A stretch of DNA of 44,863 bases from Planctomycetaceae bacterium (lineage in GTDB: Bacteria; Planctomycetota; Planctomycetia; Planctomycetales; Planctomycetaceae), in the NCBI GenBank assembly GCA_002726205.1, contig PBSL01000002.1:26999-71861 (forward strand). The letters are read 5' to 3'. Position 1 is the stretch's first letter; every line of letters starts with the position of its first letter. The position numbers were made by a program, and so were the translations under genes. Of the stretch, positions 1,815 to 20,600 are shown piece by piece. The notes below the pieces were generated by a model. That model was not told the DNA's origin, did not search any database, and saw only the letters and a list, made by a program, of their open reading frames with translations.

Positions 1815-4800
1815 ATGAATCTTGGTGTGAAGGCCACGGTGGTGGTGATGTGCCTGGCGTCGTTGACGACGTCTGCAACAGCCCAAGGCCCGGAGAAATC
1901 GACCTCCAAAACGGCGGCAGCCCAACCAGCCACCCGTCCGGTACAACCGGCCGCAGCCGCTTCGGATGTGTGGGAGCAGCTGATCTATGTCCCGTACCGC
2001 AACCTGAAGTCGGTTTTCGAGAAACATCCCTCGACGGTGTTCCTGCCGTACCTGGAGTACTTGAAGTTGTGGGAGCGTGCCGGCGGTGCGGCTCGCACTG
2101 CCCAGGGGCCCCCGGTTCCGGGCGTGATCACCCAGGCAGGCTACGTGGCGACGGTTGATGAGAATCTGGCGCGGATCACCGTGAAGCTGAAGATCCAGGT
2201 GCTCGGGACAAAGTGGTCGGAGATTCCGGTCAGTTTCGGGCAGGCAGCGATCGGGAAGATCAGTTCGACCAGTGGCAAGGAGGCCAGCGGTGTGTTGTTG
2301 CGTGGCACGGGTGCGGGCAAGTACGCGTTGCTGTTTCCTGAACCGGGAACACACGAGGTGACGCTGGAGTTGACCACGCGAATCCGCACCTCGGCCGACG
2401 GCCACTCGTTTGAACTCGACTGCCCGACGGTCGGGATGACGACGTTCGAGTTGTCGATTCCGCGACCCGCACAGGCCGTCGATCTGACGCCTCGACTGGT
2501 GGCATTGCCGATCGAGGCTGCCGAAGGACAGACGCGGATCCGGGCTCGCCTGGGAGCAACGCCGAAGATCGCTGCCTTGTGGTACCCGCGGGTCGGACAG
2601 AAACCCGACATGGACCTGCTCTCGAGTGTCAACAACTACCAGCACGTATCGATTCGCGATGGCCTGGTGCACACCGATGCGCACCTGCATCACGAGGTGC
2701 TGCGTGGCGAGTTGAACCAGTTACGGATCGCCGTTCCCGTTGGCCACCGCATCCTCGACATCGCTTCGACCCAGGCGAAGATCAAGAGCTGGAAGGCGGT
2801 CGCCGAAAAAAACCGCCAGGTGGTGACCGTCGAGTTCATCGGTGCGGTCCGGGGCAAGTTCATTCTCGAGGTCCACACCGAGCGGCCGGCCCCGGCGGTG
2901 GGGCAGGTGTTCCCGGTGTCGGGAGTCGATGTGGCCGGCATCGCCAAATCAACGATCGACGATGCCGGCATGAAGATCCACGGGATCCACTCGCTGGATG
3001 CGGTCCGCGAAAGTGGGCAGGTCGTGTTGACCCACGGTCCGGACCTGACGCTCAATGTTGCCCCACCGCGGGGCCTGGTCCGAATCGAGCCGGCGGAAGT
3101 TCTGCAGACGATCCGTCGTCCGGGGGGCCGGTCCTACAAGTACTACAGTCCCCGCTTCGACCTGGGGGTTTCCTACGAACCGGTTCAGCCCCGGATCACC
3201 GTCGATCAGGTCTCCCGATTGATCTTTCGCGACGACGAACTGCGATTGACGTCGCAGCTGAAATACACGGTCGAGCGAGCCGGGGTCTTCGAGTGGAAGC
3301 TGAGGTTGCCGGCCGGACTGGAACTCGACGACGTCAAGGGTGACGGTTACAAGGAGCACGGGTTCGACAAGGCTTCGCGGATCCTGACCGTTTCGTTGGC
3401 GCAACGACGGCAGGGTGCGGTCGGACTGAGAATCACTGCCCATCAACCGTTCGACGGCGAGGCCGATACGGTCAACGTGGCCTTGCCGGTGATCGAGCCG
3501 CTGGGCGTGATTCGTGAAAACGGATCGGTGGCCGTCTACGCTCCGAATGCCTACGAGATCGTGACCGACGAGGGCAAGCTGTCGGGGGTCCAGCCGGACC
3601 GTTCCAGTCGCCAGGCCGCTGCCGTCGGCTTTGCCCGGCTCGCCAGCGCCTGGCAGTACACGTCGTACCCGACCACCGACGTCGCCCGCAAGCTGTCGCT
3701 GCCGGTGACGACACGCCGTCGGCCAACCAGGCTCTCGGCCACCGTCGCCACCATCGCGACCGCCCGCCAGCAACTTGTCGAACTCGAATCACACGTGGTG
3801 TTCCTGGTCGAGTATGCCGGCAAGGACACCTTCCGAATCCAGGTTCCCGAGGCGGTTGGGGATCAGGCCCAGATCACCGTCATGACGGCCGATCGCAGAC
3901 GCCCTGTCACGGTGCCGATTCGCGAGAAGACCGCCGGTGACGCCGTCGATGGTTGGGTCACCTGGACGATCGTGATGCAGAGGGAACGGACCGGGCCGGT
4001 CGCGTTCCGGGTGGTGTGGGACCTGAAGTCAGCAGAAAGCAAGGGAGAAGCGGGGGGCAGTCGCGAGGTCCTGCTGCAGCCCCCGCGACCGCTCGATCTC
4101 GACAACGACAACATCATCGGTGAGATCGTCATCAGGAAGGACCGTTCGCTGGAAGTGAGGACATCGGAACCCGGGCAGCCAGAGGAGGGACTCGAGAGAA
4201 TTGATGTGCGGGAACTGCAGTTGATTCCGAGTACCGGGTCGGCCGCTTTTCGCTATCACCACCGCAAACCCGTCGGCCTGCAGATCATCACGCAGCAGTT
4301 CGAGGCCGAGCAGGTCGTCGAAACTGTCGTCTCCCGCGGCCTGGTCGAGGTCGTGATCAACAAGGAGGGCCGGGCCGGCGTCCGTTGCCGCTATCGGCTC
4401 AAGAGCAGTGAACGCCAGAGACTGAGAGTCGATCTTCCCCGCGGGAGCAGGACACCCGACGTTTTTGTTGGTCGGCGACAGGTACCCGCTGAACTGTTTG
4501 AAGGCGAGAAAAACGAGGACGAGGACTGGAAGTCGTACTCGATCAACGTCTCGGGCACGAAGACCGACGAGGAATTCACCCTGACCCTGCGGTACGACCT
4601 GGATCTCGACAGTTTCTTTGGCAGCTGGTTCGGGGGTACCGAATCGATTGCCCTGCCCCAGATCGGTGGAGTCGCTTCCGGGGACGGTGTCGACGTGGTG
4701 ACACAGGAACTGAAAGTGGCGGTCTGGGTTCCCGAGGAATACGGGCTGGTCGGGGCACCAGAAAAATTTGTCATCCTCTCGACCAACTCCGGTCAACTCG

Positions 4801-5324
4801 AGCGATGGTTTGACCGCCAGGGCCGCGGTGGCGATCCCGGCCATTTTCCGACCCAGGGAAGGGAGTTCATTTATGGCAACCTCGGTGGCAGCGAGTCGGT
4901 CGAGGTGACCTGGTGGAAGAACTGGTCGATGACCGCGGGGATCAGTATCCCGATCTTTGCCATCGGTTGCGTGCTGCTCTGGACTCCCTGGACCAACCGG
5001 GCAGGTGTCGTGCTTGTCGTCTCGTTTATCGTCTCGCTGTGGTCTCGCAAGGATATCGACGGTGTAACCGAAGCCCTGCTGGCGGCTCGCTGGGGAATTG
5101 GCTTTGTGATCGCCGTGTGGCTGTTGGCCGCTGTTGTTGGATTCCAACGCACCAGTCTCTTCTCGCTGCCGTGGTCGAAGTCGACCGAACCCGGCGAGGA
5201 TCTCCCGCCGGACTCGACCGACCAACCGCCGGCCACCGACGAAGATGTCTCGACGGACGCGGTTTCGGGCGATGAGCCGGATGCTGACGGGCCAGGTGCT
5301 GACGAGCCGGAGGACGCATCGTGA
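1815..5324 (+). CDS. Giant exported membrane-anchored beta-rich protein (1169 aa)
   Basis: Not a named family that I recognise. The protein has a clear Sec signal peptide (hydrophobic about residues 6-20, TSATAQ cleavage region near 24) and a head motif near residues 58-90 (IYVPYRNLKSVFEK ... FLPYLEYLKLWERA). About 900 residues of alternating beta-strand-like sequence follow. Two or three transmembrane helices lie at about 1038-1110, then a highly acidic Asp/Glu/Pro tail to 1169. Most of it should face the periplasm or cell surface, anchored near the C terminus. The ATG at 1815 has a GGGGAGG ribosome site. Its stop overlaps the GTG of the next gene (GTGA, 5321-5324), so the two are coupled. 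The head motif recurs twice in the downstream protein, making them paralogues. From memory, similar heads occur in other planctomycete exoproteins; the function is unknown. Confidence 0.85.
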   Translation: MNLGVKATVVVMCLASLTTSATAQGPEKSTSKTAAAQPATRPVQPAAAASDVWEQLIYVPYRNLKSVFEKHPSTVFLPYLEYLKLWERAGGAARTAQGPPVPGVITQAGYVATVDENLARITVKLKIQVLGTKWSEIPVSFGQAAIGKISSTSGKEASGVLLRGTGAGKYALLFPEPGTHEVTLELTTRIRTSADGHSFELDCPTVGMTTFELSIPRPAQAVDLTPRLVALPIEAAEGQTRIRARLGATPKIAALWYPRVGQKPDMDLLSSVNNYQHVSIRDGLVHTDAHLHHEVLRGELNQLRIAVPVGHRILDIASTQAKIKSWKAVAEKNRQVVTVEFIGAVRGKFILEVHTERPAPAVGQVFPVSGVDVAGIAKSTIDDAGMKIHGIHSLDAVRESGQVVLTHGPDLTLNVAPPRGLVRIEPAEVLQTIRRPGGRSYKYYSPRFDLGVSYEPVQPRITVDQVSRLIFRDDELRLTSQLKYTVERAGVFEWKLRLPAGLELDDVKGDGYKEHGFDKASRILTVSLAQRRQGAVGLRITAHQPFDGEADTVNVALPVIEPLGVIRENGSVAVYAPNAYEIVTDEGKLSGVQPDRSSRQAAAVGFARLASAWQYTSYPTTDVARKLSLPVTTRRRPTRLSATVATIATARQQLVELESHVVFLVEYAGKDTFRIQVPEAVGDQAQITVMTADRRRPVTVPIREKTAGDAVDGWVTWTIVMQRERTGPVAFRVVWDLKSAESKGEAGGSREVLLQPPRPLDLDNDNIIGEIVIRKDRSLEVRTSEPGQPEEGLERIDVRELQLIPSTGSAAFRYHHRKPVGLQIITQQFEAEQVVETVVSRGLVEVVINKEGRAGVRCRYRLKSSERQRLRVDLPRGSRTPDVFVGRRQVPAELFEGEKNEDEDWKSYSINVSGTKTDEEFTLTLRYDLDLDSFFGSWFGGTESIALPQIGGVASGDGVDVVTQELKVAVWVPEEYGLVGAPEKFVILSTNSGQLERWFDRQGRGGDPGHFPTQGREFIYGNLGGSESVEVTWWKNWSMTAGISIPIFAIGCVLLWTPWTNRAGVVLVVSFIVSLWSRKDIDGVTEALLAARWGIGFVIAVWLLAAVVGFQRTSLFSLPWSKSTEPGEDLPPDSTDQPPATDEDVSTDAVSGDEPDADGPGADEPEDAS

Positions 5325-8300
5325 GCGTGTTTTTCGGTAGCGGCCGCTGGTCGATCAGGTTGGTGGTGCTCTTGTGGCTGATCGCCGGTTCGGTTTCGGC
5401 CCAGTCGACGGCAACACCGCCACGTTCGCGGCGGGTGTTTGTTCCGATCGAGGACCTGGACGTTGTGCTTGCCGGTGATCGGCGCGGGGTGTTGCTCGAG
5501 AAGGACGAGTTCCGGAAATTGCAGAAGTTGGCGGCAAGCAACGAGGCGACGCGTCCGCGGGTACCGGTCCCGTTGGTTCTACGAGAAGTTCTCTACACGG
5601 CCCGGCTCAGCGGCGATCACCTGCTGATCGACACGACGGTTCGGTTCCACCAGTTTGCCCGTGGTTGGCAGACCCTGTCGTTGCCACTGCGTGGTGTATC
5701 GGTCGAGCGTGCAGTCCTGTCGGGGCGGCCGGCGCGGATGGCACGTTTTCGACTGCCGGGAAAAAAAGGGCAGCCCACCGTCTCGGGCCTGGAGTTGTTC
5801 CATGACAGGCCGGGGCCTGCCAGACTGGAACTGGGCCTTTCGGCCCCGCTGGCCTCGCTTGGCAGCGACAAGGTCGCGGCCTTCGGGTTGATTCCCGCGG
5901 CCACCGCATCACTGGTCGTCCACTTGCCGGCGGGCAAGCATCTGCTGGTGGATGGCCTGGCGGTCCGCCGGCCGGCGGCAACCGAAAAACCGGCGACTTA
6001 CACCTTGCCCGTCGGTGGTCGCAGCGAGGTACGGCTGGCCGTAACCGATCGGCGGGCCGAACGCAGTGGCGACAAGCTGGCCTTTGCCTCGACCGCATTC
6101 GGCATCGGCGTGGCTCCCGGTGAGGTCACCTGGCAGGCGGTGACGAGACTGGATGTGTTCGGGCAAGCGCATAATCGGCTGGTGGCGACGGTCCCACGAT
6201 CACTGGAAATCACCGACGTCGAGTCCAGTGGGTTGCAGGGTTGGGTGCTGGCCGACGATCCAGGGGACGAACGGCTGACCCAGATCACCCTGGATTATCG
6301 CCAGCCATTCACCGGTTCGCGTCGCGTGGTGTTCAAGGGTGTCATGACCACGGTGGTGGGACAATTGTGGCAGGTACCCCGGCTTCGACTTCCCGGCGTC
6401 ACCTCTCATGTCGGACAGGTCCTGGTCCAGTATCCACCCGGCGTTCGCCTGCAGGTGACCACGGCGAGCGGAGTTCGTCGGGTGGCGGGCGTGGTGGCTC
6501 TGAAGGGGGTTGCGGCCGGAGGCGGGGCGTTGAGGTTCGATGCCTGGCGCGAGGATTTTTCACTGTCGTTTGCGACCGAGACCAAGCGGCAGGAGTTGCA
6601 GGCGGGATTGGCAACGATCCTGGAGATCGGTGACCAGGGCCTGGACCTGGTCGCTGAAGCGACGATCGAGAGTCGGTTTTCACCGTTGTTCCAGGTCGAC
6701 CTGTCGACTCCGGTCGACTGGAACGTCACCGGCGTCCGGGTCGCCGGCAAGTCGATCCCCTGGCAGAGACTGCCCGATGCCGATCAGCGGCACCGGTTAC
6801 GAATCGGATTCGAGAAAGCGTTGCCGGAGGGGACTGAGGTTCGCGTGACCGTACTGGCTCATCGTGACCTGCCCGATTGGCCGTTGGCCAGCGACCGGCA
6901 ACACGTGGTGCCCCTGCCTGACGTGGCGTTGGAGGTCGGTGGCGATGGCAACGCCGGCGGCAGGTCGGGCTTGATTGTCGAGGGGACCTACGTGATCAAG
7001 GCGCCCGAGGAATACGACGTGGTCGCCGACGACCTGGTCGGTCTTGACGAGTCCCGTCTGGAACTCACCGGACAGCGGCTGGGCTACACCTACCAGGGTC
7101 TGAAAATCGGGGGCACGCTGCGGGTGATCCGTCGACCGGTGAGGCTGTCGGCCGAATCGCTGACCGTCGCGCGGCTCGATCGTGGAACCCTTGCGACTCA
7201 CTACGAGACCCGACTGGATATCCAGGGCGGAGGCACCCGCACGGTCGTGATCGACCTGCCCGAGCAGGCTGGTCTCGATCTCAGGTTCCGCCTGTTGCAG
7301 TCGCCGTACCGGATCATCGAACAACTGCCCGCGGCTGCGATCGATGGCCGCCGACGCTGGGCCTTGAAGTTCGACGAGTTCGTCCGGGGCCGGGTGTCCC
7401 TGGCGGTGGATCTGACGATGGCTCGCGAGCAGGCTGCCGAGAAGAGCGAGGCTGTCGACGGGACCTCCAGGACTTTCCGGCTGCCGACGCTGGCGGTGAT
7501 TGGTGCCGAGCGGGAAAACGGTTACGTGGCGATCGAGTCGGCCGATGATCAGCAGATCGAAGTCGATGCCTTTGAAACCGGGGATCGGCAGACAAAACTT
7601 TCCGAGGTCGATCCCATCGACTTGCCCGCGACCACCTACCGGCCGCGCGAGCAGATCGTGGCCGCCTATCGCTACCTGGTGGCTGGTTACCGGGTGGCGG
7701 TTACCGAGACGCGGTTCGATCACGGATCGGTGATGGCGGCGGTTTGCCACCACAGCACCGTGACCAGCGTGTTGGCACGGACCGGCGAGTTCCAGCACCG
7801 GGCGTCGTTCGACCTGACCGCCGCCGGCGTGCAGAGCCTGCTGGTCAATCTCGGCGGCACGTCCGCACAAGCCCGGACTCTCTGGGCGGTAACCATCGAT
7901 GGCCAACCGATCAAGGCACGTCGCCGGGACGAAAAGACGTTTGTCGTTTCCTGGCCGACCGACGAGGCGGGAAGCGGACGGCACAGCCTGGCGATCTTCT
8001 ACAAGTCGCAGGTTCCCCCGCTGACGGGTTCGGGGCGACTGAGTCAGACGGCGCCGCTGGTGTCGTTGGTGGAAGGAACCGGCCGGGAACAGCCGCCGAT
8101 CGAGGTTCTCGAACAAAGCTGGACCCTGCATCATCCCGGGCAGACCCTTGTGGTCGAGAGCGAGGGAGAATTTGTTCCCGCCGCCGCGCTGGATCGGGTC
8201 AGCCTGCTCGGGCGAATGAAGGAGTCGTTCCGGGTCACCTCGCCCCGCAACCTCCTGATGCGGGCAGTCCTGCTGCTGGTGGTTCTCGGCGGGCTGGCCG

Positions 8301-11300
8301 TTTTGACGCTGGCTTTTCGCCGCCGTCGCTACCTGGGACTGGCCGCCGCCACAATGGCACTGCTGGCGGTTGGTGTGATGACCTCAGTGATCATGTACAG
8401 CGGTCTTCGCTCCGATATGTCCAGAGGATTGGTTCAATCGATGGCAATGCCGACCAGCTCGGAGGGTGCCGATTTCGACTCCGCTGTCGAAATGGAAGCC
8501 GCGGTGGCTGAGGATGCTCGCAGCCGGAGCAACACGCTCGGTGACGCACTACCACAGGGCAGGGAGCTGGTGGAGGAGAAACTGGCTGATATTGCGGAGA
8601 AATCAAAAGAGACACCCAGCCAGGGAGCCAAGCCCGCGTTACCCGCCGCTCCGGGAGACCCCGGGAACGGGCCGTTTGGCGGCGTTGATCCAACAAATCG
8701 TCCCGCTTCCGAATCGAGGCAGCCGCCGCCGCCGGTTCCTACCGAAAATGACGAGCAGGCCGCCAGTGGCAAGCCGGCCAGGAAGCTCTCGAGAAGTGAA
8801 GGGGCCGTGTTGTCGCTGGCGTTGGAGATTCAGCCGCCGGCCGGCAGTGTCTCGCGTCACTTCCATTTTCTTGGCAGCAACGATTTTCCCGGAAGCGAAG
8901 GTGACCGACCGCCGGCTGCGCTGGAGATTGGCTACCAGGACCTCGGGGCGCAGGCCACCGAACGCTGGTTCTGGATCGTGCTTGTTGTCGGGTGCTGCTG
9001 GTTCCTGCGCTCCCGGTCGCTGACACAGCGGTGTGTTGCGGCGATCGCCGCGGTGATTGGTCCCCTGGCCCTGGTCACTGTTCTGCCGGTTTCGTGGAAC
9101 ATCTTCCTGGATGGTCTTTTCCTGGGCGCCGTGGCCGGTTCTGGACTCTGGTTGACGATCGGTGCGGTCGGAAATCTGCCGTCGGCCTGGTCGTGGTGCC
9201 GATCCCGTCTTCCCGGCGGCATTGTGCGTACGGGTGGCTTGTTGCTGGCCGTTTCATTGATGGCATTTTCCTCCCGGACGGCAATTGCCCAGCAGCCGGC
9301 TGCGAAGGTGTCGGCGGCAGCAAAGAGGCCACCGCTGGCGAAATCCGGACTGCCCAGAGAGGTGATTCCCTTCGATTCCAAGTCCGACCCTCTCAAGGCG
9401 TCGCGGGTGTTGATTCCCCAGAGAGAATTCCTGCGCCTGTGGAACCTGGCCCATCCCGATCGCCAGGTCCTGCCTGCTGCTCCGCGGCCCGCTGTCGTGG
9501 CCGGAGCGGCGTGGGAGGCGCGGGTGGTGGCCGGGGCCGAGGGCGTGCCCAACCGGGTGGCGGTCCGCGGCGTATTGCAGTTGTATAGTTTCCGCGACGG
9601 ACAGGTCGTGTTGTCGTTGCCACTGGGTTCGGTTGCCCTGGGCGGGGCCCGGCTCGACGGGAAACCGGCGCCGGTCGTGACCCGGGCCCGCGCTGCCGCG
9701 CCGTTGGCCGTGGTTCTCAACGGCCGGGGGGCTCACCGTCTTGAAATCGAATTCGATGTGGCCCTCAGGCAAACGGGTCCAGCCGGGCGGTTCACCGTCC
9801 CGTTGCTGGCGGTCCCGGCGGGTCGATTCCGTTTCCTGCTTCCCGCGAAGGACTTGCTCGTGCGGGTCAATGGATCAACGACCCGGCACCGTCGCAGCGT
9901 AACCGACGGAAACGAGTCGATCGACATCGGTGTGGATGCCGGTGGCCCGTTGCTGATTTCCTGGCAGCCGCGACAGTCGCTGGCCGCTGCCGACGGGCTT
10001 ATCCAACTGGAGTCGTACACCTCGGTTCGTGTTGCCGACAACGGGGTGCATCGTCGTGGCCACTATCGCTTCCGCGTTCGCCAGGGCGGGCTTCCCGAGG
10101 TGGCCTTTGAATTGCCCGCGACCGTTCGTCTCCAGCGAGTGAGCGGAATCGACGTGGGGGGATGGGATCTTGATGAAGTCGATAAGCAGCGTCGGTTGCG
10201 GGTCTTTTTCCGTCGTCGCGTGACCGATGAGACCAGCGTGGAACTCGAGTTGTTCCAGGACCAGCGAGTGGGTGCAAACTCAACCCGGCTTGCGGTGGAT
10301 GCCATTCGCGTGGTCGGGCACGAACGCGACAGCGGGCTGCTGGCCCTGTTTGTCGAGGACCAGTTTGCCGTCGGCGTGGCCACCAGTACCGGTCTCAAGC
10401 AGGTTGACCTCAAGCAACATGCCCGTCCTGGCTGGATCAGCCGCAGGCCCGGTTCCCCGGAGCGGCCGGCGGTGATGGCACCCCCGCAGTTGGCCTTCAA
10501 GTACATCAGCCGTCCGTTTGGCCTGGCATTGCAAGTGAGACGACGGATTCCGGTGGCCACCTCGGTGGCCCGGCACGCGGTGCGGGTCGAGCATCGCAAG
10601 GTTCGAATTGCTTCGCGAATTCGTTGGCATCTCAGCCAGGCCGCTCGATCCGGAGTCACGTTTGATCTGCCGATCGACTATCTGCCCGTCGGCGTGGCTG
10701 CCACGGGGCTGGCCGACTGGTTCGTGCACGTCAACGACGATGGCCGCAGACGGCTGACCGTCAAGTTTGATGCGCCGCGGACGGGCACCGTCGACGTGGT
10801 CCTCGACGGCGTACTGCCTCGATCGCCGGAAAAGGAAGAGTTGAAATTGTCGTTGCCGCGGCCTCTGGATACGGGTCGATTGCTGGGGCAGTTAGCCGTC
10901 TGGATCGACGAAGCCTACACCGCGAGAATTTCCAGTCGTGGTGGCTGGCGGTCGCTTGATCCGTCGCGGGTCGATCCGGACCTGGGACGTCGCGATCCCC
11001 GCAAAGCCCGCTTCGCGTTTGATTCGAACAGCTCCTCGCCGGACCCGGTCTCGCTGCAGGTCACCAAGGCGATTGCGGGATTGCAGGCTGCGGTGGTCAC
11101 CGTGATCACGGTCACCGACACGTTGGTGGACTATTCGCTGGCCTTGTCCTGGAAAATCACCCAGGCCGCCGCCGACGAGTTTGTCTTCACGACTCCGGGC
11201 CGACTCAAGGGCAGCCTCCAGTTTCGTGACGGCCGAATTCGCGAGGTCCGCAGCGAACCGATTGCCGCCGATCCGCAGGGCCGTGTGCGATGGACCATCA

Positions 11301-13336
11301 CGCTCAACGAGCCGGTCCGCAAACAACTGTTTCTGATCGCCCAGGCCACGCTGCCGCCCCCGTCCGCGAACTCGAAGAGCCTTTCGGCTCCCCAGACCAT
11401 TTTCGAACGAACGGTGGTCCCGGGAAGTGATGACGAAGCGGGGGGGCAGTACCAGCCGCTGGCAACACAGGAACGCTACGTGGTCCTGATCAACCAATCG
11501 CGTCGGCAGCTCCTGCGGGAAGAGGTTCCCGGTGTGGAGCGGATCGAAAAGGACGATCTCGACGACGTGAAAGTGCGGGTTGACCGGCAGTTGTTCGACC
11601 AGGCCACCGAGATGCTGCAGGTGGCGTCGACGGCCGCGACACCACAGTGGACGCTGGCCTCGGCAACGACCGAGCAGGGGACCACTGCCGAGGTGCAATT
11701 GGCCGAGCTTGTGACCGTGTTGGCCGCCGACGGCAGTTGGCGAACGCGTGCGTCGTACACGATTCGTAATCGTTCGCATCAGTTCCTGGCCGTGCGGATG
11801 CCGGAGAAGGCCCGGGTGCTGGCGGTGATCGTCGCCGGACGGCCATCGCGACCGGTAGAATCCGCCGCGTCCCGGAAGGAGAACATCGTCCTGGTCGCGT
11901 TGCCCAACACCAGCGAGGGCGATCGGTCATTCCAGGTCGTCTTGATCCTCTCGGGACGCCTGGCCGATGGACCGCTTCCGCGTGGTTTTCATCTCTTCGC
12001 CGATCAACGGCGTCTTCCCGTGCCTCACGTGGTCAAGCCCGCCGAGGACGATGCGGTGGAAGTGCCGGGAGTGTTTCAGGAATTCGAAATGCCCGTCCGC
12101 AGGATCTCCTGGTCGGTCCATGTTCCCGATGATCTCGATGTCGAACCGATCGATGATGAACAAACCAACCTGTCATTAGTCGGCAGTGATCGCCTCAAAC
12201 TCAACCAGCAACACGCGATTCTCGACGAGGCCAATTACCTGTTGAACGTGCTCGAGGGACGAGCCAGCAGCAAGGCGAAGTACAAGGCGGCCGCCAATCT
12301 CAAGGGGCTCGGGACAGCCCTGCTGGATTACACCAGCGAGCAGCGCGGACTTCGGTCGGTTCAATCCGGGAATGACCGGGAAGATTTTCAGAGAATGAAC
12401 GAGCAGTTCCAGGGCCGATACAAGAAGGCCCTCGAGCGGGTCAAGGTGGACCAGGGCCAGCAGACGCTGACGATTGTCGATGATTCCGGAAACCTGGCGG
12501 GACAGGATGAGAGTTTGCAGAAGGCCCAGATCCTCAGGAACAACAGCCGGCTGCTCAGAGAAAATCGCGACGTTGTGCAACAGCAGGGCCAGCAGCAGCA
12601 GACCGGGAAATTCGCTTTCACCCTGAAAGTGCCGGCGGCAAAACCGAGGCCGACCAAGGGGAAGGCTGGCAAGAAGAACAAGGACGTCGCTTCGAAGAAA
12701 CGGGACACATCCCAGTTGCGGCAGAAGCGACGCAGCCAGAGCCTGAAACAGGCCAAGGAGCTCAACACGGCGCTCGAGAATCAAAGGGCACTACAGCAAC
12801 AAAACGTGATGCCTCAACAAGAACGTCCCTTCGATCAGTCTTTGAACCAGATCGTGGGATCCCCTGGAGAGCAGTCGCCGATGGGGGGTCTTGGCGCAGC
12901 AGGTATGGGTGGTGGAGCCTCTGGAGAAGATGGAGAGGTTGCTCTGATCGGTGATCCGACCGCAGGAGACACTGCGGGGGGACTGTCGGTTGAATTCGAT
13001 ATTCCGACCGGGGGCCAGATGCTGCAGTTTGCCACGACCCGGGGCGGCCCCAAGCTGGGCCTGGCGATCCGGCCCCGCGAGTCGATCAAGTTGGGATTGA
13101 ACCTGTTGTGGACGGTTGCCTGGTTGGCCGTCGCCGCCGGGATCATCGTGGCCTGCCGGCGTCCCGAGACCCTGGCCGCCCTGCAACGCCACTTCGCCAA
13201 GGGATTGGTCGGCGTCGGGCTGGTCGGGTTTCTGTTGTTGCCCGGGTTGCTGGCCTGGTCGGGATTCCTGGTCTTCGTGGTCGGCGGGGTAACTTTCGCC
13301 GTGCAACACCGGGTGGTTCGTGTCGACGCCGCCTGA
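5321..13336 (+). CDS. Giant exported protein made of two fused family copies (2671 aa)
   Basis: A 2671-residue protein that reads as two homologous exoproteins joined head to tail. The first half has a signal peptide (hydrophobic 14-25, then SVSAQ), a head motif at about 40-65 (VFVPIEDLDVV ... EKDEFRKLQKLA), a long beta-rich body, a hydrophobic hairpin at about 977-1028, a tail motif (SLALEIQPPAGSVSRHFHF) and more helices at about 1216-1290. At about 1299-1323 there is a second, internal signal-peptide-like stretch ending in an AxA site (AIA, 1321-1323). A second head motif follows at 1361 (SRVLIPQREFLRLW), then another beta-rich body and a Gln-rich, charged coiled-coil-like region at about 2250-2520. 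The second tail motif (LSVEFDIPTGGQMLQF) precedes C-terminal helices at about 2593-2665. It starts with GTG inside a GTGA overlap with the upstream paralogue. No catalytic motif is visible; a surface or envelope structural or adhesive role is only an inference. Confidence 0.85.
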   Translation: MSVFFGSGRWSIRLVVLLWLIAGSVSAQSTATPPRSRRVFVPIEDLDVVLAGDRRGVLLEKDEFRKLQKLAASNEATRPRVPVPLVLREVLYTARLSGDHLLIDTTVRFHQFARGWQTLSLPLRGVSVERAVLSGRPARMARFRLPGKKGQPTVSGLELFHDRPGPARLELGLSAPLASLGSDKVAAFGLIPAATASLVVHLPAGKHLLVDGLAVRRPAATEKPATYTLPVGGRSEVRLAVTDRRAERSGDKLAFASTAFGIGVAPGEVTWQAVTRLDVFGQAHNRLVATVPRSLEITDVESSGLQGWVLADDPGDERLTQITLDYRQPFTGSRRVVFKGVMTTVVGQLWQVPRLRLPGVTSHVGQVLVQYPPGVRLQVTTASGVRRVAGVVALKGVAAGGGALRFDAWREDFSLSFATETKRQELQAGLATILEIGDQGLDLVAEATIESRFSPLFQVDLSTPVDWNVTGVRVAGKSIPWQRLPDADQRHRLRIGFEKALPEGTEVRVTVLAHRDLPDWPLASDRQHVVPLPDVALEVGGDGNAGGRSGLIVEGTYVIKAPEEYDVVADDLVGLDESRLELTGQRLGYTYQGLKIGGTLRVIRRPVRLSAESLTVARLDRGTLATHYETRLDIQGGGTRTVVIDLPEQAGLDLRFRLLQSPYRIIEQLPAAAIDGRRRWALKFDEFVRGRVSLAVDLTMAREQAAEKSEAVDGTSRTFRLPTLAVIGAERENGYVAIESADDQQIEVDAFETGDRQTKLSEVDPIDLPATTYRPREQIVAAYRYLVAGYRVAVTETRFDHGSVMAAVCHHSTVTSVLARTGEFQHRASFDLTAAGVQSLLVNLGGTSAQARTLWAVTIDGQPIKARRRDEKTFVVSWPTDEAGSGRHSLAIFYKSQVPPLTGSGRLSQTAPLVSLVEGTGREQPPIEVLEQSWTLHHPGQTLVVESEGEFVPAAALDRVSLLGRMKESFRVTSPRNLLMRAVLLLVVLGGLAVLTLAFRRRRYLGLAAATMALLAVGVMTSVIMYSGLRSDMSRGLVQSMAMPTSSEGADFDSAVEMEAAVAEDARSRSNTLGDALPQGRELVEEKLADIAEKSKETPSQGAKPALPAAPGDPGNGPFGGVDPTNRPASESRQPPPPVPTENDEQAASGKPARKLSRSEGAVLSLALEIQPPAGSVSRHFHFLGSNDFPGSEGDRPPAALEIGYQDLGAQATERWFWIVLVVGCCWFLRSRSLTQRCVAAIAAVIGPLALVTVLPVSWNIFLDGLFLGAVAGSGLWLTIGAVGNLPSAWSWCRSRLPGGIVRTGGLLLAVSLMAFSSRTAIAQQPAAKVSAAAKRPPLAKSGLPREVIPFDSKSDPLKASRVLIPQREFLRLWNLAHPDRQVLPAAPRPAVVAGAAWEARVVAGAEGVPNRVAVRGVLQLYSFRDGQVVLSLPLGSVALGGARLDGKPAPVVTRARAAAPLAVVLNGRGAHRLEIEFDVALRQTGPAGRFTVPLLAVPAGRFRFLLPAKDLLVRVNGSTTRHRRSVTDGNESIDIGVDAGGPLLISWQPRQSLAAADGLIQLESYTSVRVADNGVHRRGHYRFRVRQGGLPEVAFELPATVRLQRVSGIDVGGWDLDEVDKQRRLRVFFRRRVTDETSVELELFQDQRVGANSTRLAVDAIRVVGHERDSGLLALFVEDQFAVGVATSTGLKQVDLKQHARPGWISRRPGSPERPAVMAPPQLAFKYISRPFGLALQVRRRIPVATSVARHAVRVEHRKVRIASRIRWHLSQAARSGVTFDLPIDYLPVGVAATGLADWFVHVNDDGRRRLTVKFDAPRTGTVDVVLDGVLPRSPEKEELKLSLPRPLDTGRLLGQLAVWIDEAYTARISSRGGWRSLDPSRVDPDLGRRDPRKARFAFDSNSSSPDPVSLQVTKAIAGLQAAVVTVITVTDTLVDYSLALSWKITQAAADEFVFTTPGRLKGSLQFRDGRIREVRSEPIAADPQGRVRWTITLNEPVRKQLFLIAQATLPPPSANSKSLSAPQTIFERTVVPGSDDEAGGQYQPLATQERYVVLINQSRRQLLREEVPGVERIEKDDLDDVKVRVDRQLFDQATEMLQVASTAATPQWTLASATTEQGTTAEVQLAELVTVLAADGSWRTRASYTIRNRSHQFLAVRMPEKARVLAVIVAGRPSRPVESAASRKENIVLVALPNTSEGDRSFQVVLILSGRLADGPLPRGFHLFADQRRLPVPHVVKPAEDDAVEVPGVFQEFEMPVRRISWSVHVPDDLDVEPIDDEQTNLSLVGSDRLKLNQQHAILDEANYLLNVLEGRASSKAKYKAAANLKGLGTALLDYTSEQRGLRSVQSGNDREDFQRMNEQFQGRYKKALERVKVDQGQQTLTIVDDSGNLAGQDESLQKAQILRNNSRLLRENRDVVQQQGQQQQTGKFAFTLKVPAAKPRPTKGKAGKKNKDVASKKRDTSQLRQKRRSQSLKQAKELNTALENQRALQQQNVMPQQERPFDQSLNQIVGSPGEQSPMGGLGAAGMGGGASGEDGEVALIGDPTAGDTAGGLSVEFDIPTGGQMLQFATTRGGPKLGLAIRPRESIKLGLNLLWTVAWLAVAAGIIVACRRPETLAALQRHFAKGLVGVGLVGFLLLPGLLAWSGFLVFVVGGVTFAVQHRVVRVDAA

Positions 13337-14710
13337 TCAGGGTGTCGGCGGGCGGATTGTCCAACGCGGGAAGCTGAGTGGAACCGGGACCTTGATGATC
13401 AGCGTGGCGGCTTCGAACACGAAGTCCCAGTCGGCCGGTCGCCCGTCGAGTTCCTTGAAATGGTAGGTGATCTGGGCCGTGCCGTCTCCGAGCCGGGGTG
13501 TTTCCAACCGGCTGAATTTCACACGCTGTTTTGCGGTGTTGGCAAGGTGAGCCCGGTTGTACAGCAGCCCGATACGATGGGATTCGAAGGCCGGTCCGCC
13601 CGATTCGTAGTTGACCTGGATCTGCACGACGGCGTTGAACCGGTCGTTTTCGATCGGCAGGAACTTTGCCGACTGCAGCACGACCGCGACACCGGCTCGT
13701 CGGCTGGTCGACTTGCTGGATTGCGACGGTCGCGGAAAACGGAAGGCCTGGGTCCCGGCCGCCAGCCAGACATTGGCCCGACCCACCAGGGTAATTTCTT
13801 TCAGCGGTGTGGCCGCGGCAGACTGGAAGTCCAGTCGCAGTTGCAGGCGCGGATCGTCGCTGCCCAGGGGCAACTCCAACGTGGCATCGGGACTGCGTGG
13901 AGCGAGCGGCCGGGAGGATCCGTCCCGGAAATGGCCCCGGGCCCGAAAGTCGGCCGGTCGGCAGACCAGGTAGAGGGGGCGCAACCGCGGTTCGGCCGCC
14001 CAGGCCAACCGTAACGGGATCAGCAGTTGGTCGCTGCCGGGGATCTTGCGTGGAGTTCGCGAGGTGGCGACCACGCGAAACGGGCCCGGCCTGGCGATCG
14101 ATCCGACCGGATCCGGAGTGGGCCCCGGCGTCAGTGCGGCGGTGCCCGGTCGGCTGATCAGTCCCGTCCGCGCTGCCAGACGATCGAGAACGTCCCAGTA
14201 GGTCTGCTTGTCGAAGCGAACCGGAAAAGACCTCGACCGCAGGGCGCCAGGAACGGCGACCAGTTTCAAGGGGTTTCCGGATTGCCGACTGATGGCCTCG
14301 ACGATCTTCTCCAGGGGAAAAGTGCCCTCGAGGGTCACACGGGAGGCTTCGGCCGAGCGGATGGCCTGGGTCTGTTCGAGCGATCGCCGGATGCGACGCA
14401 CGGCCGCCCTGGTTGCCACATTCTTCAGCGACGACGGGGGTGGCAGGTGATCGAGTATCCCAGGACCGAGTGACAGCAGTTTTCTTCGTGCCCGCTCACG
14501 GGTGGCCCGCCGGTTGTTGCCCAGTTCGACGACCAGCTGTTGGATTTCACGAGCCAGTTGCTTGGTCTTTGCAGTCGACTTTGTTGATTGGCCCCGGGCC
14601 GAAGACAACGGGACGATGATGGCCACGAAAAGCGTGATCCCGCCCAGGAACCGACCGACGCCTCCACGGCGTGGCGTTTTGCGTCGGGAAATTCGTGGCG
14701 TGACGAACAT
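13337..14710 (-). CDS. Secreted STN-like domain protein
   Basis: A 457-aa exported protein of unknown function. The N terminus has a basic region then a hydrophobic core (FLGGITLFVAIIVPL), giving a Sec signal peptide. Next comes a helical segment resembling a HEAT-type repeat (ATRERARRKLLSLGPG). The region FPLEKIVEAISRQSG ... KQTYWDVLDRLAARTG resembles the short secretin/TonB N-terminal (STN) fold. The C-terminal half is beta-rich. I placed the start at the ATG at 14710, which gives a clean signal peptide; an in-frame ATG at 14755 would add 15 residues, and neither has a strong ribosome site. Its stop abuts that of the giant 2671-aa gene (TGATCA, 13334-13339), so the two converge with no spacer. 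A link with the giant exoproteins is suggested only by proximity and shared export. Confidence 0.7.
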   Translation of the reverse strand: MFVTPRISRRKTPRRGGVGRFLGGITLFVAIIVPLSSARGQSTKSTAKTKQLAREIQQLVVELGNNRRATRERARRKLLSLGPGILDHLPPPSSLKNVATRAAVRRIRRSLEQTQAIRSAEASRVTLEGTFPLEKIVEAISRQSGNPLKLVAVPGALRSRSFPVRFDKQTYWDVLDRLAARTGLISRPGTAALTPGPTPDPVGSIARPGPFRVVATSRTPRKIPGSDQLLIPLRLAWAAEPRLRPLYLVCRPADFRARGHFRDGSSRPLAPRSPDATLELPLGSDDPRLQLRLDFQSAAATPLKEITLVGRANVWLAAGTQAFRFPRPSQSSKSTSRRAGVAVVLQSAKFLPIENDRFNAVVQIQVNYESGGPAFESHRIGLLYNRAHLANTAKQRVKFSRLETPRLGDGTAQITYHFKELDGRPADWDFVFEAATLIIKVPVPLSFPRWTIRPPTP

Positions 14711-14808
14711 TGGCTGGATCGACGTTGACGCTGGCGGCCGAGAGAACCTGGTCATTCGAGTGTACGTGAGATGGAGACGAGTTGCACGAATCGGGAACCA
14801 GGGGTCGA

Positions 14809-15544: not shown

Positions 15545-16552
15545 TTACTGTTGCGGATCCTTGAGGATCGTCAGGTCGACGGCCCGTCCCGAGTCGAGCA
15601 GGACCTTGGCGGCGACGCGTGAGAAGACTGTCTGCATGGTATCGAGGTACATGCGTCGCATGGCCAGGTGGCGTGTTGCCAGGTAGTCCTGGGGGCCGCT
15701 GTCGGCTTCGCGATGGATTTGCGACACGAGTTGGTTGAATCGTGACGCCTCGCCCCGGGCGGATGAAATCAACCGGCTCTTGTACGCGGCGGCTTCGAAC
15801 TGGATCCGTTGTGCCTCGGCCTCGCGTTGAAAAGTCCGTTTCCCGGCGTATGCCGTGGCATTGTTGATGTGGGTCTGGCGTTCGGCCCGGGCGTTCATCA
15901 CTTCCAGGAATTCCGACTTGACCTGGATTGGCGGGTAGACGGCGCCCACGGTGACGTCATCGATGACGAGACCGAGTTGCTGAACGGGCTCCTGGGCAAG
16001 CCGTTCCACCAGGAGGCTCTTGAGCCGGTTTCGGCCGAGGACGTGGACGAAGTCCACGCCGCATCGCGTGACAGTGTCGGCGACCAGCGATTCGGCAAGC
16101 AATCGCAACCGGGTCTCGGGCGTGGCGATGCCGAAAAGAAATTGAGCGATGTCGTCGACGTGGTAATGGATGGTGACCTGGAGGTTGAGGATATTTCGGT
16201 CGCCGGTCAGGAACTGGGACTGCAGGGCCGGATCGACGGGTACAAGGAACTCGTCTGGATTTCCTTCTTCCAGGGTCGCATCGAACTCGGGTTGGCCGAT
16301 CGACATCGTGCGAACTTCGTGGGTGTTGATACGGTCAACCCGTGTCAATGGCCAGGGCAAATCCCAGCGGAGTCCGCTCGATCTCACCGCGACGCCTCCA
16401 CCCGGGTTGCGGTCCAGTTGTCCAAAGCGGCGAATCACGGCCTGTTCATTGCCACGGACGATATAGAATCCACTGACCAGCCAGGCCAGCAGCAGGACGA
16501 CCAGCGGAACTGCAGTTCGGCCGGCGGCGGTGAAGAACGTGGTGCGACTCAT
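15545..16552 (-). CDS. hflK: HflK-like SPFH/band-7 protein
   Basis: A 335-aa membrane-anchored SPFH (stomatin/prohibitin/HflK) protein. One N-terminal transmembrane helix (about 14-32) is followed by the typical entry YIVRGNEQAVIRRFG and GLRWDLPWPLTRVDR. The SPFH body is next, then an Ala/Glu/Arg-rich helical region (AYAGKRTFQREAEAQR) typical of HflK/HflC stalk helices. In other bacteria HflK and HflC form a large cage in the inner membrane around the FtsH protease and modulate its activity. It is the last gene of a minus-strand operon. Its ATG overlaps the stop of the preceding HflC-like gene (TGATG), and AAGGAGG lies about 10 nt upstream. FtsH is encoded elsewhere in this window. Assignment to HflK rather than HflC is by sequence pattern and order. 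Confidence 0.82.
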   Translation of the reverse strand: MSRTTFFTAAGRTAVPLVVLLLAWLVSGFYIVRGNEQAVIRRFGQLDRNPGGGVAVRSSGLRWDLPWPLTRVDRINTHEVRTMSIGQPEFDATLEEGNPDEFLVPVDPALQSQFLTGDRNILNLQVTIHYHVDDIAQFLFGIATPETRLRLLAESLVADTVTRCGVDFVHVLGRNRLKSLLVERLAQEPVQQLGLVIDDVTVGAVYPPIQVKSEFLEVMNARAERQTHINNATAYAGKRTFQREAEAQRIQFEAAAYKSRLISSARGEASRFNQLVSQIHREADSGPQDYLATRHLAMRRMYLDTMQTVFSRVAAKVLLDSGRAVDLTILKDPQQ

Positions 16553-17601
16553 CAGCGACTTCCCTCCTTGCCTGCCGATGTGGCCCGCGGGGCGGGAGCG
16601 TCGGTCGGTTCGGCACGAACACCCTCGGTCAGCAGTTTCAGCAGGCTGTTCGAGGCCGAGAGGACCAGCGTGGTTCGATCGTTGAGGATGAGGCGATAAC
16701 TGTCGAGAGTCCGGGTGAAACGGTAAAACTCCGGATCGCGGCGGTGGGCCTGATTGAGGATCGACAGGCTCTCGGCATCGGCCCGGCCGCGAATCACGTC
16801 GGCTTCCTGTTGCGCGTTGGCGATGATCTCGCTGTACTGCAGATCCGCCCGGCTCTTGATCTTGGTGTTTTCAGCCAATCCGTCACTGCGGTATTCCTCG
16901 GCAATCTTCTTGCGTTCCGTCTTCATCCGTTCGAAGACGGCGACCTGGTTTTGCCGGGGAAAGTTCAGTCGCTTGATCCTGACATCGATCAACTCGATCC
17001 CGTAGCGTTCCAGGACCAGGGCGGCGAGTTCCTTGCGGACGGCCTTGGGAATCGTGACCAGCAATCCGGGCCGGGCGACGTCCGGGCCCGACCCCGAGTC
17101 GTGAACATCGACCAGTTGACCGAATTCGGTTTCTCCCAACCGCGTTCTCAGTGCCGGCAGCACGTGCTCGGCCAGGCGGGTCCTCGCGGTGTCGTGATCT
17201 CCCAGCGCGGTAAAAAACCGGTAGAGGGGCGGTTTGTTTTTCGTGGTGTCGGCTGCGGTGTCGGGGGTGGCAATTCGCCAGCAGAGGAAGGAATCGACGG
17301 TGACGTTTTTCTTGTCGGCTGTCACCATTTCACCACCCGGGGGGTCATGAAGTTGTACACGGGCGTCGAAGCGTCGCACGGCGTCCAGGGGCCAGGGCAG
17401 CTTGAATTTCAGGCCCCGGTCGGCGGGTTGGTCGTAGATCGCGGCGATCTTCCCGAGTCTTTCGACAAGCACCCATTCGGATTCGTCGACAAAGGTGCAC
17501 GAGGATCCGGCCAGGCCACAGACGACTGTGAGTCCGGCCAGTCCCAGGAGGAATCGGGAGGAGGGCGTGCCCGGGCGGGCCGATTTCTGTTCATCGTTCA
17601 T
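16552..17601 (-). CDS. hflC: HflC-like SPFH/band-7 protein
   Basis: A 349-aa SPFH protein resembling HflC. The N-terminal hydrophobic segment (about 17-35) precedes the entry EWVLVERLGKI and LKFKLPWPLDAVRRFDAR, then TADKKNVTVDSFLCWRI, typical of HflC. The C-terminal helices contain ERMKTERKKIAEEYRSDG and DVIRGRADAESL, close to classical HflC wording. The helix contains one Cys (SSC), but the lipobox is poor, so a membrane anchor is preferred over a lipoprotein. The start overlaps the end of the ATPase-SPFH gene by 11 nt and the stop overlaps the HflK start (TGATG), so the three proteins are probably made in fixed ratio and form one membrane complex. Confidence 0.84.
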   Translation of the reverse strand: MNDEQKSARPGTPSSRFLLGLAGLTVVCGLAGSSCTFVDESEWVLVERLGKIAAIYDQPADRGLKFKLPWPLDAVRRFDARVQLHDPPGGEMVTADKKNVTVDSFLCWRIATPDTAADTTKNKPPLYRFFTALGDHDTARTRLAEHVLPALRTRLGETEFGQLVDVHDSGSGPDVARPGLLVTIPKAVRKELAALVLERYGIELIDVRIKRLNFPRQNQVAVFERMKTERKKIAEEYRSDGLAENTKIKSRADLQYSEIIANAQQEADVIRGRADAESLSILNQAHRRDPEFYRFTRTLDSYRLILNDRTTLVLSASNSLLKLLTEGVRAEPTDAPAPRATSAGKEGSR

Positions 17602-20600
17602 CGGGAGTCTTCCGGTCGGTCTTGGATTTGCGTGGCGGCGAGACGATCTGTTCTTCCTCGTCGCCGGGTAGAAGAGGGGCCAGCAGCGGTGGTCCGCCGC
17701 TTCGAGGGTTGGTCAGCATCAGGTGTTTTCGGCCGGCGGCCTTGGGGTCGAGGATCGTGAGTGGGCGACCGGCGAGTGCCTGTTCGATGGCCTTGAAGTA
17801 GAGATGGAGCTTGGAGACCTCGGTGGTCTGGTCGGAGCCGGTGCCGTTGGCGAGCAGCGAGAGGAAGCGATCGGCCTGGCCCCGGGCCGTGGTTGTCGTG
17901 ATTGTCGATTTGGCACGAGCCGCATCCAGTGTGGCGGCGGCCTCTCCGGAGAGCAGCTTGCCTTTCATCAGCGCCTTCCAGGTGGCGGGATCATCGAGTG
18001 ACCAGTTCGAGACCGTCAGTCGATGACGTTGAGTGGTGGTCGGTGCCGTGGGTGGTTTCGGGACGACGTGGTCGGGTTGGCCGGTTTCTGACAGGAAGGC
18101 GATGGCGCGGGCACCGGCGGCGGCCAGCAATCGGCGCGCATAATAGGCCTCGGCCTCGTTGATCAACTGCTCGCGTTCTTCGAGAGCATCGGCGACTTGT
18201 CGGTAGGCCGCGATCACCTGCCGGGGCGGGTGAATATCGAGCAGGTGGAGGTCGATGATCTCGAGGCCGAGCCGGTAGGCTGTGACTGCATCACGGGTGG
18301 CGACCAGGCAGTCACGTTCGATTTCGCGACGTCGGTCAGCAAGCAGGTCGGCGAGCGAGGCGGTGGCGGCCACCTGTCGAATCGCGGACTCGGTCGTGGC
18401 CTTGAGCAGGCTTTCGGGCTCCGCGACGCCGAAGGTGTAGCGCCGAAGGTCCCCGATGCGATATTCGACGACCGCGGTCAGTTCGACCAGGACCTCGTCA
18501 CCGGTGACCACCTGGGCTTCGGCCATCAGCGGTGAATCGGTCCGTTGATCGTGTTGGCTGTTCCACTCGATCGGTGCAACGGCAACGTCCTGGGGATTGG
18601 AATCCTCGACCGTTCGGAATCCGATCGGCAGCGAGCGGACTTCAAAGATCCGCTGGCGATGAATTGTCTCCAGCGGCTCGGGCCATCTCCAGTGCCATCC
18701 TGCCGGCAGCGTTTCCCGGTAGCGGCCGTAGCGGGCCACGACGGCTCGTTCGTTCTCCGGGAGGATCACGATTCCCGAAACGCACCAGGCAAATAGCAGG
18801 CCGGCGGCGATGAGTTTCAGGCCCGATTGCCGGTAACGGAGGGCGGCGTAGGTCAGCCGTGATGGCGAGAGTGTCTCGGTGAGTCGTGCGGCGGCGTTGG
18901 AGATCCGGTGGCTGAGGATGCCCCAGCGGGTTTCGTCCCAGCGTTGGAACCACAGCAGCCTCATCGCGTTGAGCATCACCGCCAACGACGAGATCTCGTG
19001 GAACACGGCGGCGGCGGCCGGCGACAGGAATCCCGTGGCGCCGAGCAGGATGCCCAGACCGTTCATGCCGAAGGCGAAGAGCCAGATACTCTGACGGATC
19101 ACGGTGACAAGTTGTCTTGAGAGTTGAAAGAGGCCCGGCAGGGGTTTCAGCGGATCTCCCATCAGGACCAGGTCCCCGGCCTCGGCCGCGAGATCGCTGC
19201 CGACTCCCCCCAGGGCGATTCCCACCGTCGAGGTGGCCAGGGCGGGCGCGTCGTTGACGCCATCACCGACCATCGCCACGCGGCCGCCGTCTCGTTCGGC
19301 CTCGGAAACCCAGGCGGCCTTGTCGGCCGGGAGCAGATCACTTTGGACCAGGTCGAGCGTTGGGAGTTTTGCCGCGACGGCCTCGGCGGGTTCGAGACGA
19401 TCGCCGGTCAAGAGAACGATTCGTTGGATACCGTTGTCCTTGAGAGCCGAGAGCACCTCGGTGGCTTCTTCTCGGGCCACATCGGTGACACCCAGCCCGC
19501 CGACCCAGGTGCCATCAACGGCAACCAGGATCGCCGACTGTCCGGCGGTGGCCAGTTGCCGCAGCAGCGCCTCGAGTTCTTCGGTGATGGGCACGCCGTG
19601 TTGTTCGAGCAACCGGCGATTTCCCACGGTGATCTTGTTGCCGTTGGAATCGAGGGTATGCGGTGCGACGCTGGCCACGACTCCGAAGCCGGGTTCGGAG
19701 GAGAAGTTCTCCGGAGCCGGAACGACCATTCCCCGTTTCTCGGCCTCGCGAACGACCAGACGTGCCAGCACGTGTTCGCTGGAATGCTCGGCCACCGCGG
19801 CGGTGCGTATCAGTTCGTCGGCGGTCAAGCCGCTGTCGGCACTGGGAGCGACAATTCCCAGCACGGGTTCTCCGCGAGTCAGCGTTCCGGTCTTGTCGAA
19901 AACGAATGTGTCGACACTGGCGAGTCGCTCGAGCGCGGCCGAACCCTTGACGACAATTCCGGCTCGTGCCAGCCAGGCCATCGCGGCCATCACGGCGCTG
20001 GGAGTCGCCAGGATCAGCGGACAGGGGCAGGCCACGACCAGCACGGCCAGCGCCGGCAGGAATCCCGATTCCCATGTCCTGGCCTCACCGAGAAATCTCC
20101 AGCCGACCAGTGTTGCCAGTGCCGCGCCCAGGACGAATGGGAGGAACAGGCGGGCAAGTCGATCGGCGGTGCGTTCGAGAGGCGCTTTTCGCTGTGTCGC
20201 CTCGGCCACCAGGTTGATCACCTGGCCCAGGGTTGTCTGCTCACCGATGCTCTCGGTTCGAACGACGAGTGCTCCGAACTGATTGAGCGTACCGCTGAAG
20301 ACTGGTTCCCCGGGTTCCTTGTCGATCGGCAGGCTTTCGCCGGTCAACGCCGACTGGTCGACGGCCGAGCGGCCCGAATCGACGGTGCCGTCAACCGGCA
20401 GCCTTTCTCCGGGTCGGACGACGACGAGGTCACCGGCCTGGAGGTCTTCGACGGGGACATCGGTTTCCACGTCGCCAACGAGCCGGTGTGCGATGGCTGG
20501 GCAGAGCTGGAAAATGCGTCGGATGGCCTGTTGAGCGCGATCGACCGTGTAGCCCTCGATGCTCTCACCACACAGGGCCACAAAGACCACCAGTGCCGCG

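Follow-up and report, generated by a model that had tools for sequence, protein, structure and literature searches.

Organization of the locus

The window, i.e. the whole stretch of 44,863 nucleotides analysed here, belongs to contig PBSL01000002.1 of a Planctomycetaceae bacterium (assembly GCA_002726205.1) and contains a single long frame for a protein with two halves, A and B. In the ORF reading of the window, this frame begins with a GTG start codon, which overlaps the end of the upstream gene U by 4 nt (Table 1). An initial annotation, made from the letters alone, had described the encoded protein as a fusion of two secreted family members with a retained internal signal peptide. The elements on which it relied can be located: the head motif is present twice, as RRVFVPIEDLDVVL..GVLLEKDEFRKLQKLA from residue 37 in A and as SRVLIPQREFLRLWNLAHPDR at residue 1361 in B, the AIA preceding the second mature part occupies residues 1321-1323, and the membrane helices at the end of each half correspond to hydropathy segments TM1 to TM5 in A and to TM6 and a last segment in B. 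The N-terminal signal peptide SP1 ends with LVVLLWLIAGSVSA in front of Q, and the internal signal peptide SP2 with GGLLLAVSLMAFSSRTAIA in front of Q (1305-1324). Neither the fused protein (P0001) nor U (P0002) matches a family of Pfam or NCBIfam at E-values up to 1, and a Pfam search with 22 U proteins returned four weak families with one member each.

Table 1. Position of the fused gene, its predicted parts and its upstream neighbor in the window.
Feature	Position	Strand	Basis or remark
U, third paralogue of 1169 aa, encoded by its own gene immediately before the fused gene	1815..5324	+	profile comparison
Fused A-B gene	5321..13336	+	2671 aa
SP1, N-terminal signal peptide, predicted cut between A27 and Q28	5321..5401	+	top-scoring N-terminal site (13.5)
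A core (residues 36-975), made up of head helices plus beta-sandwich domains in a string	5426..8245	+	model pLDDT 82.9; VIA-align
TM1 and TM2 (981-998, 1009-1024) with the positive loop FRRRR in between	8261..8392	+	family-averaged hydropathy
TM3 (1217-1227) with the segment 1240-1283, interpreted as TM4-TM5 hairpin	8969..9169	+	family-averaged hydropathy
SP2, internal signal peptide spanning residues 1299-1323; signal peptidase I is predicted to cut between 1323 and 1324 (AIA before Q)	9215..9289	+	
B core, residues 1345-2287, fold of the same kind as the A core	9353..12181	+	profiles, model
Membrane segments at the C terminus of B: 2596-2609 and 2626-2659 (the second one possibly two helices)	13106..13297	+	hydropathy

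A gene for a ParA/MinD-type ATPase (726-1544, +) lies upstream of U. One family of same-strand upstream flanking genes, which includes a gene of the window locus, recurs in six loci; judged by length alone, its window member is the ParA-type gene. The fused gene is directly followed by a convergent gene (13337-14755, -) for a 472-aa protein with a signal-peptide-like start and without a Pfam match above the cut-off. Positions 17591-20998 (-) encode a protein of 1135 aa, which combines a P-type (E1-E2) ATPase, a HAD domain and an SPFH/Band_7 domain, and two more Band_7 genes come after it at 15545-17601. Conservation of the flanks is too low to derive a function from them, the commonest flank family being found in 12 of 121 loci examined.

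Homology and fold of the two halves

The relationship between the halves becomes apparent in profile-profile comparisons. A matches B with an E-value of 8.6e-58 over 852 columns at 18% identity, and U matches B and A with E-values of 6.7e-61 and 7.2e-57, respectively, each of the three comparisons covering 852-862 columns. Plain BLASTP yields weak similarity between A and B (E 2.3e-5 over 127 aa) and E-values of 5e-9 for A and 3e-13 for B against U; as proof of the homology of A and B it is too weak, and the profile comparison is decisive instead. DNA repeats between the halves were also considered as evidence, but are short and uninformative. Since profiles built from relatives match at such E-values, U, A and B are, as judged from their sequences, three paralogues, two of which share one frame, and the halves can indeed be regarded as two family members.

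Both halves have a long core that consists almost entirely of beta structure, and the two cores resemble the same solved folds. The AlphaFold2 model of A residues 36-975, based on 25 sequences, contains two helices in the head, and similar matches to solved folds are obtained with the model of B residues 1290-2289 (pLDDT 78.8, 18 sequences). Three tandem domains of A each align with the N-terminal beta domain of M1 aminopeptidases and LTA4 hydrolase (Z around 12-13, rmsd 3-4 Å, about 150-167 residues); however, it is this one domain alone that aligns, and the zinc-binding HExxH motif of M1 aminopeptidases is absent from P0001 and P0002 and present in just 2 of 88 long homologues. The tandem domains also align with ribophorin I, a membrane-anchored protein that faces away from the cytoplasm. 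The structural alignment of A to ribophorin I reaches a Z of 16.4 with an rmsd of 21.5 Å, and that of B to ribophorin I/OST1 a Z of 13.7. The likeness is limited by an rmsd of about 19-23 Å over the tandem and 8-14% identity, and there is no sequence match, including Pfam. Integrin alpha chains rank high in Foldseek for A and B with TM-scores below 0.2, and a sequence search of solved structures returned one match at chance level (E 0.27).

A signal-peptide-like segment at the A/B junction

Cleavage sites were scored with a home-made matrix of 15 columns (not SignalP), which was trained on 67 sequence windows preceding the heads of U proteins, the U of the studied locus and one duplicate locus among them. 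With this matrix, the site between residues 1323 and 1324 obtains 8.4, the top score among the 2583 positions that follow the N-terminal region; this value is lower than that of SP1. For the relatives, 106 ORFs of more than 1450 aa were collected and scored when the B match started at profile position 20 or before (75, then 73), so that distant families lacking a clear B head lie outside the 73-locus counts. L153 (a copy of L035) and L174 (part of L031) were dropped, and apparent duplicate records such as L063/G009:C148 were kept out of these counts. The junction site of each of the 73 unique loci, our own included, was taken as the best site within 110 aa before the B head; in five of them, this best site lies more than 60 aa from the head. 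The junction site ranks first in 43 and among the top three in 59 of the 73 loci, and another position outranks it in 30. Its median score is 9.8, compared to 12.3 for the N terminus of A itself in 65 loci. The ends of 328 other membrane segments have a median of 4.1, from which the junction sites differ with a Mann-Whitney p of 5e-28, uncorrected for relatedness.

In 68 loci, the site lies no more than 60 aa from the head; alanine occupies position -1 in 54 of them, 59 fit the -3/-1 rule and 49 carry Q, E or D at position +1. An alignment of the junction in 24 full-length proteins displays a short hydrophobic stretch, often preceded by K/R, which in many rows ends with a small-x-small motif followed by Q, E, D or A; the closest named relatives, L061 and L062, have GWA and GWS, each before Q. 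The internal site also outranks the N-terminal one in four of six further distant fused genes (L195, L196, L198 and L200), and the N-terminal site outranks the internal one in L197 and L199. With a hydrophobic peak of 1.37, SP2 of the window protein is close to SP1 (1.54) and below TM1 to TM4 (2.12, 2.39, 1.70 and 1.97). The initial annotation had named a structural model with residues 1299-1323 as an ordinary helix of one continuous domain among the findings that would speak against its interpretation. AlphaFold2 leaves the first 61 residues of 1290-2289, SP2 included, unpacked with a pLDDT of around 30, the alignment being thin there. By its matrix score the segment is signal-peptide-like, and it recurs at the same place in relatives.

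Two further observations concern the residues around SP2. In the signal peptides of U across loci, the predicted cut is usually followed by Q; together with the Q, E or D after SP2, this is reminiscent of the Q-rule of Bacteroidetes (PMC5837995). In 12 rows of the 24-protein alignment, the cytoplasmic loop between TM5 and SP2 contains two adjacent cysteines (CC), and often several cysteines in all, which are a possible metal or acylation site.

Membrane topology

Hydropathy averaged over 24 proteins of the family resolves SP1, TM1, TM2, TM3, the 44-residue stretch that is read as a TM4-TM5 hairpin, SP2 (1305-1315), TM6 and the last segment. The short loops 999-1007, 1229-1238 and the one before SP2 are positively charged, and the long loop 1025-1211 is acidic. 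Five helices after the A core put the beginning of SP2 in the cytoplasm, which is the orientation of a signal peptide. A crude count of helices between the A core and SP2 (Kyte-Doolittle value of at least 1.6) gives an odd number in 37 of 55 loci and an even one in the other 18; it puts the window locus among the even ones with four helices, its TM3 peaking at 1.35 and hence below the threshold. Helix counts on single sequences are noisy for parity, and the family average is therefore preferred.

Distribution and age of the fusion

At least 32 of 59 genomes, the one studied here included, match the fused protein; 25 of the 32 contain a frame of more than 2400 aa, and in the other seven the gene lies in pieces on short contigs. 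At most five candidates per genome were scored in this survey, and the 27 non-matching genomes are thus no proof of absence. The B core was matched in 215 of 297 genomes drawn from the class, and a draw from the phylum gave matches in 115 of 392 genomes. A frame of more than 2000 aa is found in 81 of the 89 class genomes with a listed match at E ≤1.1e-87, counting G269 and G294, which are cut by the contig end with the tail of A still present; of the other eight, six end at a contig edge (L057, L102-L105 and L107) and two are split (G177 and G272). Long frames also occur in single-contig genomes (G001, 2688 aa; G004, 2724 aa; G017, 2703 aa; G032, 2864 aa). The usual layout in the loci read is U followed by A-B. 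When frames are taken from the first possible start, 58 of 76 U/A-B pairs lie within 100 nt of each other and 19 overlap by exactly 4 nt. Weaker matches (families f2, f3 and others) are long frames adjoining a U-like gene, some of them shorter (1502-1965 aa), in which the placement of SP2 is uncertain. The fusion is old and widespread rather than a local event of this genome. The proposal of the initial annotation that two adjacent genes had fused is supported by the homology of the halves, by the signal-peptide-like segment at the junction and by the occurrence of the halves as separate genes in relatives.

An apparent triple fusion of U, A and B in G465 (a frame of 3726 aa) was rejected as an over-extended open frame. 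One copy of the family (L106, G268:C32) is broken into three short ORFs and is apparently decaying or affected by assembly errors.

Natural splits at the junction

Six loci are split at the A/B junction (L110, L114, L072, L086, L175 and L176), and B begins with a signal-peptide-like stretch in these separate genes, weakly so in L176; relatives with separate halves, which the initial annotation had proposed to look for, are therefore at hand. The tree has 72 tips (66 fused, 6 split), two of which, L085 and L115, stand for one and the same protein, leaving 71 distinct loci (65 fused); the splits occupy four positions in it. As loci were partly picked for looking split, the proportion of 6 in 71 should not be read as a frequency. 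The contigs of L110 and L114 start inside A, so that this half is incomplete for both loci in the tree. In L110 (G177) and L114 (G272), A stops after TM5, and 325 nt and 394 nt further on come the signal-like stretches VVRCAYLLVALFSFAAITQA and LVVQRPCSTETSSVGVLALLCFLMLLATGSAFA, respectively, each in front of QEP and B. The gap DNA yields 60 match rows in its own genome for L110 and 82 for L114 and none in the genome of the other; these rows include the site itself, count many places on both strands and contain other copies that match in part. The restriction to the own genome points to repeat elements of different kinds and hence to separate events. L072 and L086, relatives of L114, have 369 and 258 nt between the stop of A and the signal stretch of B, and the fused loci beside these split relatives include L115 (= L085) and, to judge from its junction, L069. 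Outside the class, L175 and L176 encode U, A and B as three genes with A-B gaps of 47 and 57 nt. B of L175 starts with MNRVIVRVCVLAACLAVVLRSAVRA before E (site score 9.4), and B of L176 has a hydrophobic N terminus with a weak site score of 2.2. L110 groups with the fused L155 with a support of 1.0, and L176 with the fused L180 with 0.97; the node of L190, L176 and L180 is supported with 0.44. The split of L110 is best read as fission, i.e. as secondary.

Proposed processing of the fused protein

The computed homology of the halves, the recurring SP2-like segment, a topology compatible with export and the natural splits lead to the following reading: the A-B gene probably encodes a polyprotein, from which signal peptidase I would release two proteins, each anchored in the membrane and carrying ribophorin-I/M1-N-like beta domains in a string. 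SP1 would send A through Sec, the beta core of A would fold outside the inner membrane, and the five helices would return the chain to the cytoplasmic side just before SP2. SP2 would then enter with its N terminus inside, thereby starting the export of B, and would be cut by signal peptidase I at the predicted site between residues 1323 and 1324 in the same way as SP1. Mature A would comprise about 1296 aa with an outer beta core, five membrane helices and a stub of SP2, and mature B about 1348 aa with an outer beta core and the C-terminal helices. The fusion and the 4-nt overlap with U could provide U, A and B at equal dose, and the three proteins would probably form one envelope complex of ribophorin-I/M1-N-type beta-domain strings, which may serve as a scaffold or in binding rather than as an enzyme.

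The main rival, which we consider rather unlikely, is that SP2 acts as an uncut signal anchor, so that the product would remain a single giant chain, its two outward-facing beta arms tied together in the membrane. SP2 does follow membrane helices, its orientation would suit a sixth helix, and the fused state is that of the majority (81 of the 89 strong class matches). However, SP2 has a much higher cleavage-site score than other helix ends, it is less hydrophobic than TM1 to TM4 and close to SP1, and in the natural splits a separate B begins with a signal-peptide-like stretch. The recurrence of a signal-peptidase-type site at the end of SP2 across loci makes it very improbable that another protease cuts elsewhere in the junction loops and that the motif is incidental.

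Still more doubtful is a separate synthesis of B from a translation start inside the gene, just before SP2. In-frame GTG, TTG or ATG codons are found near SP2 of the window protein at residues 1302, 1307, 1308, 1313 and 1314, and an ATG alone precedes SP2 in 22 of 68 fused loci, slightly above the 26% at random positions; however, with the pattern used, none of these window codons has a Shine-Dalgarno-like stretch, and a start together with such a stretch precedes SP2 in 6 of the 68 loci versus 12% at random positions. Many of the records come from metagenome assemblies, contig ends truncate several loci and the L106 copy lies in short ORFs, which could raise the suspicion that the fused frame is an artefact of assembly or annotation. 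An artefact is excluded, as the fused frame recurs in single-contig genomes, and long frames are found in 81 of the 89 strong class matches; the profile E-value of A against B speaks equally against unrelated halves, so that we give next to no weight to either objection.

Comparison to known systems

To our knowledge, bacterial polyproteins cut by signal peptidase are rare exceptions. One of them is FbcH of Bradyrhizobium japonicum, a polyprotein of cytochrome b and cytochrome c1, whose internal signal peptide is said to be cut by signal peptidase and whose parts are encoded by separate genes in other bacteria. The fused A-B protein resembles FbcH in that a membrane protein and a following exported protein share one frame with a predicted internal signal peptide in between, in that a conserved site of the signal peptidase I type lies at the junction (by the home-made matrix and the 73-locus ranks given above), and in that the parts occur as separate genes in relatives. 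In contrast to FbcH, which joins two unrelated subunits of a known enzyme, the frame described here joins two paralogues of an unnamed family, is found in many genomes of one phylum and has repeatedly been split. In viral polyproteins such as bunyavirus Gn/Gc and those of Flaviviridae, signal peptidase frees a second exported protein at an internal signal; these cases differ from the planctomycete one in that they involve viral genes and the signal peptidase complex of the eukaryotic ER. A literature search at the level of titles and abstract starts returned no paper on this family or on a planctomycete polyprotein, and FbcH did not appear by name among its results.

A broader reading, for and against which we see about equal weight, is that of a phylum-wide polyprotein system, in which an envelope machine would contain U, A and B as three subunits in stoichiometric amounts, A and B would be delivered within a single chain and set free from each other by the ordinary signal peptidase, and the junction would have switched several times between the fused and the split state, because the mature proteins remain unchanged by such a switch. 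A conserved case with natural splits as built-in controls would offer a clean system in which to study Sec, topology and signal peptidase at an internal signal, and it is a warning for annotation, since two mature proteins may be counted as one giant hypothetical protein. As U, A and B are widespread in planctomycetes, the window proteins match no Pfam or NCBIfam family and the fold of the family may be ribophorin-I-like, they are a good target for envelope biology.

Some genomes (G245, G220, G175, G238, G072 and G268) contain a second, more distant locus of U and a long frame, as exemplified by L136 and L146 in G245; the system is thus present there as two paralogous copies.
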